Origin: Pseudomonadota bacterium
Lineage (GTDB): Bacteria > Pseudomonadota > Gammaproteobacteria > CALCKW01
Direction of reading: 5' to 3'
Assembly (NCBI GenBank): GCA_039196715.1
Contig: JBCCUP010000030.1
Location: 1 to 52,531 of the forward strand
DNA length: 52,531 bases
The position numbers were made by a program, and so were the translations under genes. Shown here one piece after another: positions 1 through 7,328 of the stretch; position 1 is the stretch's first letter, and the number at the start of each line of letters is the position of its first letter. The notes beneath the pieces were generated by a model. It was given only the letters and a program-made list of their open reading frames with translations, ran no database searches and was not told the DNA's origin.

Positions 1-20
1 CGGGCGGCCTGTCGGCCGTC

Positions 21-106
21 CCAAACGGCGTTGCCGTTTGGTCAAACGACCGTTCTTACCTGGACGGAGTGTGCCAAACAATAACGGCCACCCTGGGGTG
101 ACCGTT
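21..106. promoter_or_regulatory. Inverted-repeat cluster upstream of a ribbon-helix-helix-like gene
   Basis: Two inverted repeats lie just before the first gene. CCAAACGG (21-28) pairs exactly with CCGTTTGG (34-41) around a 5-base loop. AACGGCCACCC (83-93) pairs with GGGTGACCGTT (96-106) with one mismatch. The second ends five bases before the TTG start at 112. In plasmid and mobilisation operons such repeats serve as operators bound by the small DNA-binding protein encoded next, or as part of a transfer origin. Which applies here is inference. Confidence 0.4.
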
Positions 107-111
107 TTGGT

Positions 112-339
112 TTGGCGCGCATCGACGAAAAGTTTTCGAACACGCTTTCTGAGGAATTTAGCAGATGGGAGACCTATCTCCAAGCAGAAAAAATCAATAT
201 TTCTCAAGCGCTTAGACAAGCGGTGGCTCGGAACGCTTCGGCTGGTGTGAGCTCACCACCAGATCGGGCCAAACCGCCCGACAAATCATCCCGCAACGCG
301 GCATCACGCAGCCCTAAACCACGGGGGCTGACACGATGA
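112..339 (+). CDS. Small ribbon-helix-helix-like protein (plasmid/mobilisation type)
   Basis: A 75-aa protein with a TTG start and no clear Shine-Dalgarno sequence. The first 40 residues look like a ribbon-helix-helix DNA-binding fold: a short basic strand, then two helices ending NISQALRQAVARN. The rest is low-complexity, rich in Pro, Ser, Arg and Lys. The stop overlaps the next gene's ATG (ATGA at 336-339), which argues that both are real and co-translated. Proteins of this kind regulate or mobilise plasmids and integrative elements, and inverted repeats suited to autoregulation lie directly upstream. The family assignment is by eye only. Confidence 0.4.
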   Translation: MARIDEKFSNTLSEEFSRWETYLQAEKINISQALRQAVARNASAGVSSPPDRAKPPDKSSRNAASRSPKPRGLTR

Positions 340-612
340 GAGATGTTACAGATTTCAGCTTTGATGAAGAGCACGTCGCCGTCCGTCGTTCCCGGCGGGT
401 GGTTGCGACTAACACTCCGACCCTTGCTGCGACGAGCCCGCCGGTTAATGACCAACCAGTTGTCAAAGACCAACAAGAGATAGAGGAGCCTGCAGCGCCG
501 CCGGTCGCCTCTGAGTTCAACTTTGCTAGTGCTCCGAAGGTCACTGCTAAACCGGCCTCACCGCGCATCACGCTGCGCCTGACAGCGGGCGCGTTCAAGG
601 AGGTGCAGGCGG
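336..612 (+). pseudogene. Second gene of the RHH-like operon, truncated by an IS remnant
   Basis: The reading frame opens at ATG 336, overlapping the previous stop. It encodes an acidic, Pro/Ala-rich N-terminus and then PRITLRLTAGAFKEVQA, which resembles the opening strand and helix of a ribbon-helix-helix or MobC-like domain. At about 611 the sequence switches to the start of a transposase gene on the opposite strand, so the natural C-terminus is lost. The frame runs on through the IS fragment to a stop at 833, but those residues are IS DNA read backwards. The gene is probably inactive, or makes a chimeric protein. Its function is not established. Confidence 0.5.
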
Positions 613-786
613 TCAGGTCATGCTGTCGAGACACCTCTGCAACCGTGGTTTTCCCTTTGAGGATATCCAGCACAACCTGCGTCTTGCGCTTGGCTGTCCA
701 GCGTTTGATATCGGACTCTGAATCCACCATGTCTTCTGCCTCCTCGCCGCACTATATCCTGTGCAGCTATAGAGGGGGTCAGTTCA
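611..786 (-). mobile_element. IS3-family insertion sequence remnant (5' end and orfA start)
   Basis: On the minus strand an ORF starts at 730 and encodes about 40 residues of an IS3-type OrfA helix-turn-helix, including RWTAKRKTQVVLDILKGK and VAEVSRQHDLT. It breaks off at about 611. Upstream of that start the element ends in TGAACTGACCCCC (minus strand, ending at plus position 786), which fits an IS3-family terminal inverted repeat. Only about 175 bp of one end remain. OrfB and the other terminus are absent, so the element cannot move by itself. It has destroyed the gene at 336. Confidence 0.65.
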
Positions 787-1290
787 CCCATACCTTAATT
801 CGATTCGCTTCCGAGCGATCCAATCAACGTTAGATTGACAAGGTGGGAATTGTCGATGACGATGGTGTGGCGAGTTGCGTATTTATGCCGATCCACTTGC
901 TTTATCGAACCATATTCGCAATTCGGTTGCTACTGACAGCTGAGCAATTTATATTGTCTAGTGAGCGTGCCAGTGTAAGCAATCCGTTGCAATCAGTTCT
1001 TGGTTGTTGTACCAGCGTAACAGACGTCTTCTAACGCACCCGTGCTTGTGTATTGGCAGTAAACACCGTAGCTCGTGGGTTTGCAAGTGAAGGGATATGT
1101 GGTACTACTGATTGCAACAAATCTCATGTTTGAGAGTTCTACCAAAAACCTGCCTTAGGGCTAGCAGACGCAAAAAATCTAGCAATTCTTTAACTGATAG
1201 TGCAACGATGGGTCGCACAATCTGATTTCGTCGCCCACGTCAGCGATCTGCTAGTAGAAAACAAGCGGGCGCGCCACTCGCACGAACCGC
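787..1290. other. AT-rich intergenic stretch, no gene recognised
   Basis: About 500 bases between the IS remnant and the end of the papain-like gene. The short open frames here show no convincing start, composition or family resemblance. I see no tRNA, repeat array or strong hairpin. Confidence 0.5.
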
Positions 1291-3108
1291 TTACGAGATA
1301 TCCCGAATGTGACTACCCTCGACTGATGATAAGCCTATATATCTTTTTGGAAGATTTATCTCGTCTGCTTCGAATGCATTTTTGAGAATTTCTACAAAGC
1401 CCTTCTCAGCTTCGATATTGGTGGTATATATCAAGAAAGTTGAGACGGATTGAGTTGGATGGGCTGTGGTGGTGTCGTGGACGATATCAAAAAAGGGAAA
1501 TACACGCACGCTCGTTTGGTGTTTTTTTACTGCATATAGTCTTGTCACTCCAATAGTTTTACTCATTGAGCCCATCATGCCCGCAACGTCGAGCAAGAGC
1601 TGTCCTTTGTATGCATAGTTATTCGGAGTTGGAACCTGAGTCTTCATGTACTCAGAGCTGTTGTAGAATCTGAAGTCTGTGCAGAAAGTACCGTTGGCAG
1701 TGGCATATTGAAGGCCGTGCCTGCGAAGTAACTTGTCGACAAAAGGAGTCATTGCTCCTATTGCTTGATCAGAAAATATTTTTTGCACCTCCATTGGGCA
1801 CAGCCTATGGCTTTTTTCAACTGCAACAAAAGCCCTGTAGGGCATAAATATTACATCTTGAGCTTCCTCCTCAATAGCTCCTTCGCGCCCATCAGGCGGC
1901 TCTCTTTTTAGAAAGCAGTACTCGGCTGTGAAGATATCATCTTCTCCGTTATTCTTGATTTCTAGTGAGGCGCTCTTAGAGAAAAACCTAAATCTACTAT
2001 TAGGCCCAATATTATCGTCATGAACATAATATGTGGAAGCGTGATGAGAGTTTGGTATTATGCTGTGATTTCCAGTATATTCCGATAGATCGGTGCTCTG
2101 TCGGTAACCAGTTACGCATATGGCGTGCTGAGATAAGTTCTCGCTACCGTCGCTTTGGGATAGCTCGTCTTTGTTGACAATATAGTTTCCCGCTAAAACA
2201 ACCGGCACTCCCAGATGGAGAAAAGGGGTGAGAAACTTGTTTAGTTTCTTGCCGGACAGCATATGGAGCGCATGCTTTCCAAGGTTGTTAAACGTCTCAT
2301 CATGTCCATCTATTGCGGAAAGGTTCACGTTCGAGCCTGCTTCGTCACTCAGAAGTGCGCACAGTTGCGAGTCTGAAAGCCATAAAGCAACACCATCGCC
2401 GGTGTCCATTGGCTCTAAACCAGATGATTTAATAGCCTCTCCTATATGCCCAGACTCCCAGCCCTTTGCGGGAAAAATTCGATGTCCAGTCGAGTAGTTT
2501 TTGATTGCCGCTTCGGTTATCTCAGCTACAGTTGGTGTTCGGTAGTGAACAGAGTTTGCGGACGCATACAGCTGGGACCAGACAGCAACAGTGGAGCATA
2601 CAGATACTTCCATATCCTGTTGCTGCCAGGGTATGCCTTCTATGCTTAGGTTTAAGGTCCCGATGCTAAAACTGTGTCTATAGGACCGACACATTATTCT
2701 CGGGTTGATTTTGGTTTGATCATCGTGGTACCACCGCAAAAGCGTCTTTCCTATTCTTGCCTGCGGTAGTGGCCTGACGACTATTGTTCCGAGTAGCTTT
2801 CCGCTTATTTCGTTTCGGATGTCTACATTTTCCGGATCCTGCAGTGTCTGCAGCAAGGCTTCATCTATACGAGTGGAAAAAAATGTTAGGCGCTTGCAGA
2901 AATCGTAATGTAACCCTGAGCTGAGCGAGAAGTACTTGTGGTAGTCGGAAGAGTAGTTGCGATCCACGTAGCCGGTTTCGACTATGAAGCAAGCCGCGGA
3001 CTGACCTTTTAGATAATTGAATAGAAATTTAGCTTGATTACGTTCGCCGATGTGGTCGGTCAATTCGCCAAATTCGAAGTCCACGCACTGGATCGACTTC
3101 CTGCTCAT
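1291..3108 (-). CDS. Papain/C39-like cysteine peptidase-fold protein, uncharacterised
   Basis: A 605-aa cytosolic protein with no signal peptide or membrane segment. Residues 161-177 (WQQQDMEVSVCSTVAVW) carry glutamines followed by Cys171 at the start of a hydrophobic helix, as in papain-like and C39-like peptidases. QHAICVTGY (about 327-335) supplies a His on a hydrophobic strand, and YVHDDNIGP (361-369) a following Asp/Asn. Together they give a plausible Cys171-His328-Asp/Asn triad. The N-terminal 150 residues include GTIVVRPLPQARIGKTLL, and about 200 residues follow the His/Asp region. It stands alone in AT-rich DNA within an island, with long non-coding flanks. The substrate is unknown. 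Protease, transglutaminase-like or amidase activity are all possible. Confidence 0.6.
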   Translation of the reverse strand: MSRKSIQCVDFEFGELTDHIGERNQAKFLFNYLKGQSAACFIVETGYVDRNYSSDYHKYFSLSSGLHYDFCKRLTFFSTRIDEALLQTLQDPENVDIRNEISGKLLGTIVVRPLPQARIGKTLLRWYHDDQTKINPRIMCRSYRHSFSIGTLNLSIEGIPWQQQDMEVSVCSTVAVWSQLYASANSVHYRTPTVAEITEAAIKNYSTGHRIFPAKGWESGHIGEAIKSSGLEPMDTGDGVALWLSDSQLCALLSDEAGSNVNLSAIDGHDETFNNLGKHALHMLSGKKLNKFLTPFLHLGVPVVLAGNYIVNKDELSQSDGSENLSQHAICVTGYRQSTDLSEYTGNHSIIPNSHHASTYYVHDDNIGPNSRFRFFSKSASLEIKNNGEDDIFTAEYCFLKREPPDGREGAIEEEAQDVIFMPYRAFVAVEKSHRLCPMEVQKIFSDQAIGAMTPFVDKLLRRHGLQYATANGTFCTDFRFYNSSEYMKTQVPTPNNYAYKGQLLLDVAGMMGSMSKTIGVTRLYAVKKHQTSVRVFPFFDIVHDTTTAHPTQSVSTFLIYTTNIEAEKGFVEILKNAFEADEINLPKRYIGLSSVEGSHIRDIS

Positions 3109-3382
3109 TTTCTCGCCTAGATCCTTCCAAAATCCCAGGACACTAACTACACTTTTGTGCTATGTCAACGGAAAGGCAAAAGATATTCTATAGCTTAAAA
3201 TTTCAGCGCAAAAAGAAACTGCTCCAGCTATTTAACGCCAGAGAATCAAGGTGATGTCGGTTTTGGATGTTCACGGCCGTTAGACTGTAGGGCCTCGTAG
3301 GATGCCCAGTAGGTCAACAGCATAGAGTCAATCAAAAACAGATTTGGACGTGCCTTGTGCATCGACTGTTGCGGCAGTCTAG
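3109..3382. other. Upstream region of the papain-like gene
   Basis: AT-rich, non-coding as far as I can see. It must hold the leftward promoter of the gene starting at 3108. A weak GGCGAG precedes that ATG. I could not assign -35 and -10 boxes with confidence. Confidence 0.35.
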
Positions 3383-3613
3383 TTAATTAAAAGTAGGCTT
3401 TATCGTCGATGCTGACCGCAATCTGCTGTTTATTCTGGACTCTTGGTTGTGCCCGTATTCTTCACGAAGCTTTCCTTTCAAAGCTTGGTATTCTTGAATA
3501 TCAAACAAAGGGCCGTCTGTTTCTGTGGCTTTTGATGGGTCTGATGCAGCTAGAAACTGAACATGGCTATTGCCATTTCCCCACAAAGTGCAATATTTAG
3601 TTTTAGTAGTCAT
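3383..3613 (-). CDS. Hypothetical small protein
   Basis: A possible 76-aa hydrophilic protein starting MTTKTKYCTLWGNGNSHVQF. Its composition (many charged residues, a DIQEYQALKGKLREEYG helix) looks more like a real protein than the frames around it. No Shine-Dalgarno sequence is visible and no family is recognised. It is divergent from nothing obvious and lies about 275 bases upstream of the papain-like gene on the same strand. It could be a chance frame. Confidence 0.25.
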   Translation of the reverse strand: MTTKTKYCTLWGNGNSHVQFLAASDPSKATETDGPLFDIQEYQALKGKLREEYGHNQESRINSRLRSASTIKPTFN

Positions 3614-4420
3614 TTTTATAAGTATTCTTGTTATCTACTCAATGGATACATGAAGGCATTTGATTTGTATACAAATAATAATGATTTTTCACATTGTCTC
3701 ATTGCGGTGATTCTCTGTGCTGTCGCGCTACATTGCTTTGACATGTCGCGAGAGGGCCAAAACTGTACGTGAAGCAGGTGTATCTGCCACTGACTATTGT
3801 CAGGTAATCCGGGATGCAAGCTCAAGCGCTTGGGCGACTCAATGTTGTCCAACCCCGATATCTTAATACATCTGTATCAGTTTTGTCACAAGTCGAGCAA
3901 TCTATCCGCAGTAATACTGTCTAAAAAAACTCTAAAAAACAATACATATCAATGGTTTATGCCGTAATTGTTGTGAGACTGGCTTGCGCAATGGAGTCGC
4001 GAACCTGCAATGCTTGGGAGCCCGCCAGCGGGGCAAGCGAGGCCAGGAATCGTCGAATGGAATCGCTGTCAAAGCGTTCACGAATTGTTGCCTGAATTGC
4101 TACATGCTGCATGGGCTCTGAGGTGGAACGTTGTGTTCGACAGGAATACACGTATCATTCATCGATATATCGGCAAAGCTCGCAATATCTGTGCTAACTG
4201 CCGATCACAGCATTCGCAATGCACAAAATGAGCGCTTGTTGATTGTTAAATGCCCATCGAACAGATGTGTGAACCAATATGAAGTACATTTATACTACGC
4301 TAGCCCCTGCTATAAATTTGCAGACGCTCCCAGCCCCCCCAATATTGACTAGCGGAAAGGTTTTAATTCAATCGTGATGGGACTGGACGGGATGCAACGG
4401 GCTTGCCCTTGCCAAGGTGG
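3614..4420. other. Non-coding island DNA with one gene-like fragment
   Basis: Mostly AT-rich without convincing genes. On the minus strand, 3957 to about 4095 is locally GC-richer and reads IRERFDSDSIRRFLASL, then SQALQVRDSIAQAS, before a stop. This resembles the C-terminal tail of a lost gene, but I cannot name it. The rest shows no repeat array or RNA gene. Confidence 0.35.
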
Positions 4421-4445
4421 TGTTGTCAGATAACACACATCTTGC

Positions 4446-4475
4446 AGGCCGCGACATTTTTTCGTGTCGTGGCCT
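4446..4475. repeat. Long near-perfect hairpin
   Basis: AGGCCGCGACA (4446-4456) pairs with TGTCGTGGCCT (4465-4475) around an eight-base TTTTTTCG loop. The single mismatch would be a G-U pair in RNA, giving a continuous 11-pair stem. It runs directly into a TTGTCAGACA motif. It could be a structured RNA, a single-strand origin or a recombination or transfer site. Confidence 0.5.
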
Positions 4476-4477
4476 TG

Positions 4478-4750
4478 TCAGACATTGCGCCTGGACAGGC
4501 GCTCGATTGATCTGATTTTCACAGGCAAAAGCTTCACAGCCATTTCTCCTCGCTCGCTCTCTTCCAAGGCCACTGCGCCGTAGCGCGTTCTTGTCGCGCG
4601 TTTCAATGGCACAAAGCGGCGCCCGTGCTCGTTGATATGGACTAGATTTTCCGTTGGAATTGGTGGTTCGTCTGACGCTTTGTCTGACAAGTCGGACAAA
4701 GCGCGCAGGAAAATTAACAAGTAAATTGAGTGTGTGCAAAATAAATTCAC
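4478..4750 (-). CDS. Possible small hypothetical protein
   Basis: Frame of up to 90 aa. The stretch DEPPIPTENLVHINEHGR followed by RFVPLKRATRTRYGAVAL has protein-like character. A TTG at about 4699 would give a shorter protein beginning MSDLSDKASDEPP. The frame overlaps the inverted-repeat motifs, which encode the SDLSDKASD part, so apparent coding character may partly reflect the repeats. No family is recognised and no ribosome-binding site is clear. Confidence 0.25.
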   Translation of the reverse strand: MNLFCTHSIYLLIFLRALSDLSDKASDEPPIPTENLVHINEHGRRFVPLKRATRTRYGAVALEESERGEMAVKLLPVKIRSIERLSRRNV

Positions 4751-4995
4751 GCGCGCCGTGGCATGCTTCCGGTTGTACAGCGCTCACCCGCGCTCACCGC
4801 GCGTCACAGCGTGTTCTGGCGGTCGCGCCTGGGGCGCTGAACGCCCTGTTTCAGCGCGGTTTGGGCGCTTTGCAGCGTCATTCCGGGGTGGTTTTGCAGC
4901 CCGCGTCAGACAAATTGTTCGACATGTCTGACAAGCATGCTCATGCGGCTTGGGTGGCGCGGATTCAGGTCAAGTGCGGGTCATTGACACGCACC

Positions 4996-5022
4996 AAAAA
5001 GCCCGCTGGGTGACAGCGGGCT
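4996..5022 (-). terminator. Intrinsic terminator, leftward
   Basis: AGCCCGCTG (5000-5008) pairs perfectly with CAGCGGGCT (5014-5022) over a five-base loop. Read on the minus strand the stem is followed by five U residues (AAAAA at 4996-5000 on the plus strand). This is a textbook Rho-independent terminator for a leftward transcript. No intact minus-strand gene now ends at it, so it is probably left from a lost gene. Confidence 0.65.
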
Positions 5023-5093
5023 CAATGTCGTTCGTGTGGTTATGTAATTCAGTGTGTCAGGTGCGATACACACCCGCAGGGGTGGCAAGGTAA

Positions 5094-5311
5094 TGGGGCC
5101 AGGACCTTGACAGACTCTATACCGCCGGTTTTCAGCGATGGGGACAAGCGCAAGCAGATCGCTACTATGACGGTCTTCTGGCCCATTTTGACAATCTCAC
5201 AGACAATCCCTTTTTGTATCAAGCTGTTGATTTCATCCGCGAAGGGTACCGTCGCAGTGTCTACGGCAAGCACGCAGTGTATTACCGGTATATTCCCGCA
5301 CACAAGGTGGA
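5094..5311 (+). pseudogene. ParE/RelE-family toxin remnant
   Basis: An open frame without a start codon (TAA at 5091-5093) encodes a ParE-type core: LYTAGFQRWGQAQADRYYDG, then LLAHFDNLTDNP, and finally EGYRRSVYGKHAVYYRY. These match the helical hairpin and beta-sheet of ParE toxins, with the typical R-x-x-x-Y-x-x-H-x-V-x-Y-R pattern. The N-terminal 5-20 residues and start are missing, and the last strand drifts away from the family after HKVE. No ParD-like antitoxin is visible upstream. I read it as a decayed toxin-antitoxin module of the island. Confidence 0.6.
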
Positions 5312-5386
5312 AACGTCGTGCATGACACTCCTAGGAGTGGTGGCTTCTGTCCCAAGTGTGGTAAACCGATATAGAAATGAGATGCC

Positions 5387-5920
5387 ATGCAAAGCATACC
5401 TCAACATGTAGTTTTTCGACTGACAGACGGTGACATAAACGCTGTTGACGAATTCCTTGAAAACTTAGGAACCACAGAATCAGAAAGTTTGCACGAGGAA
5501 CTAACACAAAACTTCTCCCAGGCGGCTGTCACTAACTTGGTTGCCGCTCTGAGGGATAACCATCGACTTCTAGAGCATAAGATCATCCAATCTGAAGACG
5601 ATTTAAATAAGACCATATGGTCTGTTGCCGAAGACAGTGATCCCATCGCAGCCACAGTCCATTCCTGTGTTGAGAAAGATAAAGAATTTTTTCAGTTTGC
5701 TACATCACGAAACTCTTCGGACAACTTTCTATTTCTCGTTCTAACACAGGAGCGGCATTACGAACTACCGAGTCTTGTTGGTGGTGCTGTTATTGTCAAA
5801 AAAGGTTGCGATGGCCGAATGATTGAAGCCTATTACTACAACGACATTGATCAGATGTTGGCAACCTTTATGGCCTCAAATCAGTGGTACGATGAACTGA
5901 ATTTAGACAGTATCAATTAG
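5387..5920 (+). CDS. Hypothetical protein
   Basis: A 177-aa soluble, acidic protein starting MQSIPQHVVFRLTDGD. It has a helical N-terminal half rich in Glu and Asn and a C-terminal half with short beta-like stretches (FLFLVLTQERHYELP, GGAVIVKKG) and an aromatic tail (YYYND). AT-rich codon use matches the papain-like gene and differs from the chromosome to the right. No signal peptide, membrane segment or known motif is seen. The size and composition would suit a small cargo or immunity-type protein, but that is only a guess from context. Confidence 0.55.
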   Translation: MQSIPQHVVFRLTDGDINAVDEFLENLGTTESESLHEELTQNFSQAAVTNLVAALRDNHRLLEHKIIQSEDDLNKTIWSVAEDSDPIAATVHSCVEKDKEFFQFATSRNSSDNFLFLVLTQERHYELPSLVGGAVIVKKGCDGRMIEAYYYNDIDQMLATFMASNQWYDELNLDSIN

Positions 5921-6135
5921 ATCTCATTGCTACACATAACTTGACGCCAACCTTCATATGTTGCTAACAAAGAACTTGCAGCTTACCCAATTTATTGTGG
6001 CGAGGTCTCGTGAGACGCGTGGGAGATAGGAAGGACAAATTTGCATCCCACTGAGCTGCACATGAACTAGAGTGTGAACACTAAACTAGCAAAGCGTTTA
6101 CTTCTGATCAGCTTTGTCACGACTGAACGCACAGT

Positions 6136-6615
6136 ATGAAGATGAATTCTGATCTGTTCACTATGTTCGCCGCGCGGCGTTTGAACGCCACCGCGCTGGT
6201 GACCAGCGATGATGACGAAAAAACGCGCGATTTCCACATGTCCTTGAATAGTGCGTATCACCTGTTCAAGTGGACATTGGATACGCGCAATCCAAACGGT
6301 AGGCTGTTTCAGTACCACCCAGGCTTTATCACGACACCGACACCCAATGCTCTTGCTGATCAGGTTGATAGGCAGTATTTCATTGGGTTGCACGAACAGA
6401 TGTTCGTCTCTGTCAGTGAGTTTGCCCTTTTTTGCTTTGCGCAAAGCGACTTCTTTGCTGAGATGGGTGATGCCAGCAAGGAAACTTCACCGCCACCGTG
6501 GGATGAGACAGTACCGGGCCTATGGCTGATTGACAACACCACGCAAGGTGGATCGGTAGGTGAAGAGCATAGCCATCAATTGATACCTACCGACCTCACG
6601 GCGCTTGCGCGCTAA
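6136..6615 (+). CDS. Hypothetical protein next to recombinase remnant
   Basis: A 159-aa frame starting MKMNSDLFTMFAARRLNATA. It is soluble, with several aromatic residues (YHLFKWTLDTRNPNGRLFQY; FALFCFAQSDFFAEMG) and a Pro-rich segment near residue 123. Two Met codons (6136, 6142) could start it. It ends immediately before the recombinase remnant and in the same phase, separated by one TAA. I recognise no domain. It may itself be a truncated or junction product of the decayed element. Confidence 0.4.
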   Translation: MKMNSDLFTMFAARRLNATALVTSDDDEKTRDFHMSLNSAYHLFKWTLDTRNPNGRLFQYHPGFITTPTPNALADQVDRQYFIGLHEQMFVSVSEFALFCFAQSDFFAEMGDASKETSPPPWDETVPGLWLIDNTTQGGSVGEEHSHQLIPTDLTALAR

Positions 6616-7058
6616 ATGTTTGATACGGTTTGGGAGCAACGCGAATTGCAGGCCGAGGCCCTCAAGGAGACACTTCGAACCCAGAAAAAGGCGCTCACGC
6701 AGCAGGTCGAAGAGCTGTTGGATCGGGTGGTTGATGCCACAGAGCCAGCGGTGATCGGTACTTACGAGCGCAAGATCAAGATGCTGGAAAAAGAACGTCG
6801 TCTGATCGAGGAAAACTGGCCGTTGAAAGCCGCACTGTGGGCGCGCGGGCGCGCACCAAAGTGGAGTTGTTCGAACGGGCGTTGCAGTTTCTCTAGAACC
6901 CTTGGAATCTCTGGTGTTCTGGCGCGTATTGGCACAAGCGACTGGTGCTACGGCTGGCCTTTACGCAGCGCATTCGCTACTGTCGTGAAAAGGGCTTTTC
7001 GAACCAGAAAACGGCCTTATCTTTCAAGGTGTTTGGGATATTTTGGGTGGTCAAGTAG
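6616..7058 (+). pseudogene. Serine site-specific recombinase, C-terminal remnant
   Basis: The first frame reads MFDTVWEQRELQAEALKETL and continues through VEELLDRVVDATEPAVIGTY, the coiled-coil region typical of large serine recombinases (Pin/resolvase superfamily). Near 6840 the family sequence passes to another frame: RTKVELFERALQFL, a TAG stop at 6894-6896, then [26 protein letters not shown] and TALSFKVFG, ending at TAG 7056-7058. These are the usual C-terminal blocks. The catalytic N-terminal domain is absent, and there is a frameshift plus an in-frame stop, so it is inactive. It ends three bases before the tRNA-Arg, which suggests it integrated the island there. Confidence 0.75.
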
Positions 7059-7061
7059 AGA

Positions 7062-7138
7062 TGGCGCACCCGGCAGGATTCGAACCTGCGACCCCCGCCT
7101 TCGGAGGGCGGTACTCTATCCAGCTGAGCTACGGGTGC
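7062..7138 (-). tRNA. tRNA-Arg(CCG)
   Basis: On the minus strand the cloverleaf begins GCACCCG at 7138 and ends CGGGTGC-G-CCA at 7062, with CCA encoded. The anticodon stem CCGCC/GGCGG holds the loop CTCCGAA, giving anticodon CCG. The T arm reads CAGGTTCGAATCCTG. The recombinase remnant lies immediately off its 3' end, a common island integration site. I could not find a second copy of the 3' segment in the first 7 kb. Confidence 0.95.
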
Positions 7139-7328
7139 GGCGTGTGGTCCAAGCGAGACCAACGTAGCGAGGCAGTCTAGCCTGTCAAAGCGCCGACGTC
7201 CACGCGCTGGTTTGTCGCTGTGCAGCGCGATTGCTACACTTTGGTGCAGTTCAGGATACAAACCTGACCCGTTCGACGTGCGCGTGCAGTGGGGCACAGC
7301 ACCGCCGAACCCTCAAGAGGACGTTCGC

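Follow-up and report, generated by a model that had tools for sequence, protein, structure and literature searches.

The window analysed here is the whole of contig JBCCUP010000030.1 (52,531 nt), one of 169 contigs of a gammaproteobacterial genome, and it carries near one end an open reading frame for a 605-amino-acid protein that we place in a family of predicted C39/papain-like cysteine peptidases. Residue numbers below are those of the window protein, and A8 is the 82-member family alignment.

1291..3108, minus strand: 605-aa protein of the predicted C39/papain-like cysteine peptidase family; ATG at 3108, stop codon ending at 1291, reading frame intact
2674..3108, minus strand: N-terminal family-specific domain, residues 1-145, with R73 and the G107-T122 block (A8)
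1924..2673, minus strand: predicted C39-like catalytic core, residues 146-395, boundaries approximate
2596..2619, minus strand: QDxxxxxC motif, with Gln164 (oxyanion-hole candidate) and Asp165 leading to the nucleophile candidate Cys171; invariant in 82/82 members
2125..2127, minus strand: codon of His328, general-base candidate; invariant in 82/82 members
2014..2019, minus strand: codons of Asp364 and Asp365 (HDDxxGP motif), candidates for the third triad residue; invariant in 82/82 members of A8
1294..1923, minus strand: C-terminal family-specific domain, residues 396-605, with the invariant Asp545 (D-x-T) (A8)
3383..3613, minus strand: 76-aa open reading frame, tentative counterpart of the small gene found upstream of other family members; 275-nt gap to the peptidase gene
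7062..7138, minus strand: tRNA-Arg(CCG), its 3' end facing the low-G+C island

The G+C content is 42-55% over positions 1-7000 and 61-71% beyond, and this low-G+C stretch, together with the tRNA-Arg gene that borders it, fits the genomic island proposed in the initial annotation. The low-G+C stretch runs to the contig end, which places the island's other end off the contig; a search of 1-7200 gave no direct repeat of the tRNA end. The same annotation had given the peptidase gene no neighbours other than relics of mobile DNA. Such relics do surround it, but the description was incomplete, as the 76-aa frame lies upstream on the same strand. Elsewhere in the island, a 138-aa frame near the contig end (314-730, minus strand) has an N-terminal fragment resembling an IS66-type TnpA (HTH_Tnp_1, weak) and appears to be a mobile-element relic. 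The start of a coiled-coil frame (6616-7060, plus strand), which looks like a serine-recombinase tail by eye only, abuts the 3' end of the tRNA-Arg gene. Two further plus-strand frames, 5387-5920 (177 aa) and 6136-6615 (159 aa), gave no convincing family matches.

Taken by itself, the window protein returned nothing reliable from Pfam, PADLOC, NCBIfam or PHROGs, and only chance-level matches in sequence and profile searches of the PDB. Relatives escaped pattern scans based on this one sequence; it took a query built from an alignment to find the 221 stretches of the species-representative genome collection that encode them, of which the best 80 were retained. These come from Pseudomonadota, Myxococcota, Planctomycetota, Gemmatimonadota, Bacteroidota, Cyanobacteriota, Armatimonadota, Verrucomicrobiota and other phyla, and the mixing of phyla in the tree indicates horizontal transfer of the family. 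Within the window's own phylum the distribution is patchy, with relatives in 21 of 398 genomes (about 5%), a search result confirmed by profile. Four plasmids carry relatives, all annotated as hypothetical, and members also occur in five viral contigs; the searches used found none in phages and E. coli genomes. PADLOC 2.0 models matched none of the 82 members consistently, and the family is unnamed, with no Pfam, NCBIfam or PADLOC model covering the whole of it. Some genomes hold several copies (G106, G122, G118, G094 and G154, Magnetococcales where named), and versions of 880-1261 aa, beside which no small partner was detected, are found elsewhere in that group.

The assignment to a C39/papain-like fold, which we infer from profiles and invariant residues, begins with the alignment. 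Residues R73, G107, G120, Q164, D165, C171, H328, D364, D365, G368 and D545 are all invariant in A8, and in 82/82 members the Cys, His and Asp stand in papain order with a Gln ahead of the Cys. The first family alignment had Cys171 and His328 in 24/24 sequences and Asp364 in 22/24; Asp364 and Asp365 were each substituted in 2/24 of that earlier set, as against none in A8. The triad proposed in the initial annotation (Cys171-His328-Asp/Asn364-366) held up in the family alignment called for there, and homologues lacking the Cys/His pair, the result that would have spoken against it, did not occur. The glutamines noted ahead of the Cys, Q162 and Q164, are likewise conserved family-wide, as is the N-terminal block GTIVVRPLPQARIGKTLL (G107, P113, G120, T122) that had been put forward as conserved and possibly family-defining; in relatives the G107-T122 block reads YxGFxVxRPxxxxxIGRTxL (A8).

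Profile comparisons agree with a papain/C39-like reading. Pfam Peptidase_C39_2 scores above its cut-off in one member (L034) and matches 7/82 members at E<0.01. When the core was compared profile to profile (hhalign), C39_2 was returned at 88.8%, C39 at 54%, NlpC/P60 at 0.5% and transglutaminase at 0.4%; the Cys and His are in register with the C39 profiles, and the C39-specific match is modest. Single-sequence structure prediction of the window protein was too poor for a fold search (pLDDT 30.9). The family resembles Peptidase_C39_2 (PF13529) and Peptidase_C39 (PF03412) in the Gln before the Cys, the Cys-His order and the core profile match. It differs from them in that Pfam gives no match for the window protein itself, in its two extra family-specific domains and a long insert before the His, and in having neither an ABC transporter nor a secretion signal. 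A bacteriocin transporter of the PF03412 type proper was rejected, as there are no fused ABC transporter domains in the 82 members and no Gly-Gly in the tails of the small proteins described below. The N-terminus of the window protein has no hydrophobic stretch (best 19-residue hydropathy 0.67 in the first 50 aa), which bears out the earlier remark that it carries no secretion signal. The frame would encode a cysteine peptidase that adopts the C39/papain fold, resides in the cytoplasm and has Gln164, Cys171, His328 and Asp364 at its centre, its core set between two domains predicted to be exclusive to the family: in profile-profile comparison neither the N- nor the C-terminal domain matched C39, NlpC/P60 or transglutaminase profiles. 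One subgroup (L034, L033, L041, L136, L127, L138, L139, L058) has a C-terminal extension of about 100 aa with the motif GHPSxTGxxxARIAGE...N..SGRYS, over which a scan placed no Pfam model in L034 or L041.

At the family level the peptidase gene has company. Plasmid annotations show a gene of 52-60 aa directly ahead of each plasmid member, and a same-strand frame of 45-140 aa lies immediately upstream in 83/101 loci, compared with 186/460 control genes. Because presence alone is weak evidence, the sequence of the upstream frame was tested by profile. In five-fold cross-validation with profiles trained on other loci, the upstream frame came top in 68/78 loci, out of about 85 small frames per locus on both strands; where a locus had more than one candidate, in about a dozen cases, the training frame had been picked by eye. 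The full profile also matches loci outside the training set (L065, E 2e-7; L109, E 1e-6). The median gap from small gene to peptidase gene is 12.5 nt, and dN is below dS in those pairs for which dS could be estimated. Conservation is greatest in the C-terminal tail, [VI][TDS]xExLxx[PR]-hydrophobic-[TS][LI], where the Leu carries the most information; in the clade closest to the window the small protein takes a variant form, with YTLWxxP towards the N-terminus and LRxFxTPV ahead of the tail. A search for members in which the small protein is fused to the peptidase found none.

The surroundings of the family loci also recur. In a scan limited to these loci, three upstream neighbours were matched by CapH models and others by models for restriction, DISARM and BREX. 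Within 8 kb, 15/101 loci have a Bub-like conjugation operon (multiubiquitin, E1 or JAB-E1, E2, DUF6527); clustering of neighbours across loci gave E1-like ThiF in 15, DUF6527 in 8 and multiubiquitin or E2 in 7, and Pfam identifies ThiF in L032 and ThiF with DUF6791 in L034. In the usual arrangement the ubiquitin-like operon diverges from a set of genes on the other strand, namely an HTH gene, the small gene and the peptidase gene. Within the stretch available, the other 86 loci have no ubiquitin-like genes, many of their contigs being short. A protein of 389-406 aa with a QPCLFG motif adjoins the family on the opposite strand, downstream in L091, L093 and L130 and upstream in L056. A role in defence, as an effector or as a toxin, as suggested earlier, is favoured by this context of CapH-like regulators, restriction and Bub-like neighbours and by the mobile, patchy distribution. 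The description of a lone gene survives for the island setting in the window but fails for the family: with a conserved small partner and recurrent ubiquitin-like neighbours, the peptidase appears to belong to a cell-conflict module that is as yet uncharacterised, and not to be an isolated oddity.

How close the tie to ubiquitin-like conjugation might be is the first question that these neighbours raise. The peptidase could carry out processing or deconjugation in the Bub-like pathway, as an analogue of papain-fold deubiquitinases that cleaves the ubiquitin-like protein or its conjugates, with the small protein as adaptor. Papain-fold enzymes are among the main eukaryotic deubiquitinases (PMC1779556), and the 15/101 loci, which span several separate lineages and phyla and often show the operon divergent from the module with the HTH gene between, stand far above the genome frequency of Multi_ubiq in the phylum (9/299, 3%). 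By our own estimate, that frequency implies chance proximity within 17 kb at about 1e-4 per locus, and on the tree the label of a ubiquitin-like neighbour changes independently at least seven times. Most loci, however, lack ubiquitin-like genes, many of the operons have a JAB domain of their own fused to E1, and neither Multi_ubiq nor Prok-JAB was detected in the window genome. The peptidase, moreover, was found in 0/9 Multi_ubiq-bearing genomes, so Bub does not need it and the link is one-way. This count rules out Bub as an obligatory partner and, with the 15/101 loci, sets aside the peptidase as a core Bub component in favour of an occasional associate. We consider a deconjugating role unlikely. 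Bub operons, which occur with CapH and CapP or with CapW regulators and have not been shown to protect against phage (PMC13373217), do share a neighbourhood with the family, as well as the CapH-like HTH regulators that stand beside many of them (PMC13373217), but the peptidase module is mostly without Bub and Bub is mostly without the module.

Whatever the family does, the window copy could be a decaying remnant without function. It is the most divergent member, with the longest end branch in the tree (2.07, median 0.6), and lacks 10 of the 44 near-invariant residues, a greater loss than in any other member, both of which suggest that it may be decaying; mobile-DNA relics lie nearby, and the small-partner profile does not recognise the 3383-3613 frame (1.8 bits). 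That frame begins MTTKTKYCTLW, the KYCTLW as in the sister clade (compare MAKRKAEYTLW in L062), and is a tentative candidate for the copy's small partner, the bare [TSN][LPIV]W motif being found in 5.6% of background frames. Against decay, the 605-aa frame is intact and keeps every catalytic and invariant family residue, and we judge it improbable that the copy is functionless. It is best explained as an island-borne, divergent orphan of the family module, whose small partner is doubtful and in whose genome no Bub system was detected.

Slightly less probable again is that the small protein is a substrate whose conserved tail is cut off by the peptidase to give an active or signalling peptide, maturation and not inhibition: the maturation of small peptides is the classical role of C39 enzymes, and the small gene is adjacent with its best conserved part at the C-terminus, but the tails lack a Gly-Gly leader motif, the 25 Pfam families that recur most in the close neighbours to either side include no transporter or RiPP family, and RiPP cores are usually variable whereas this tail is conserved.

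What best accounts for the facts seen, in our view with about an even chance of being right, is a mobile conflict module made up of the small partner and the C39-fold peptidase. The first of its two genes would specify a small protein, about 50-90 aa long and conserved in its C-terminal tail, and the second, close behind, the peptidase. The tail probably docks in the peptidase active site, as gene order, size, co-conservation and the peptidase fold suggest, and by binding the cleft it would keep the enzyme inactive or present it to a trigger. Once freed by an infection or stress signal, the peptidase would act as an effector in conflict or defence by cutting proteins of the cell, and may sometimes serve a Bub-like system.

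Type II toxin-antitoxin pairs are arranged in a similar way, with the small gene first, a larger and putatively toxic enzyme second and sometimes an HTH gene ahead, and are also mobile and patchy. The small, conserved and closely spaced partner gene typical of such pairs is present at the family level, but the family's small protein has no recognised antitoxin domain. Peptidase conflict systems coupled through EADs (PMC7159879) likewise combine peptidase effectors with small helical partner domains and sometimes with ubiquitin-like conjugation. EADs, in contrast, are shared domains found fused, whereas the family's small protein is a separate gene of which no fused copy was found, and the peptidases of EAD systems are mainly caspase- or trypsin-like (PMC7159879).

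With no model covering the family as a whole and its plasmid members annotated as hypothetical, the module is likely to be invisible to current defence finders. A bolder reading, which we put forward only tentatively, is that it represents a conflict system shared across phyla and not yet recognised: the C-terminal tail of a dedicated small protein would gate a C39-fold protease, which bacterial ubiquitin-like conjugation pathways would have recruited repeatedly. If the partner does gate the protease, it would exemplify a new type of control over suicide or defence proteases in bacteria. Bub-like operons, themselves of unsettled purpose (PMC13373217), are paired with the module repeatedly, and this association would then give a way into what Bub triggers.
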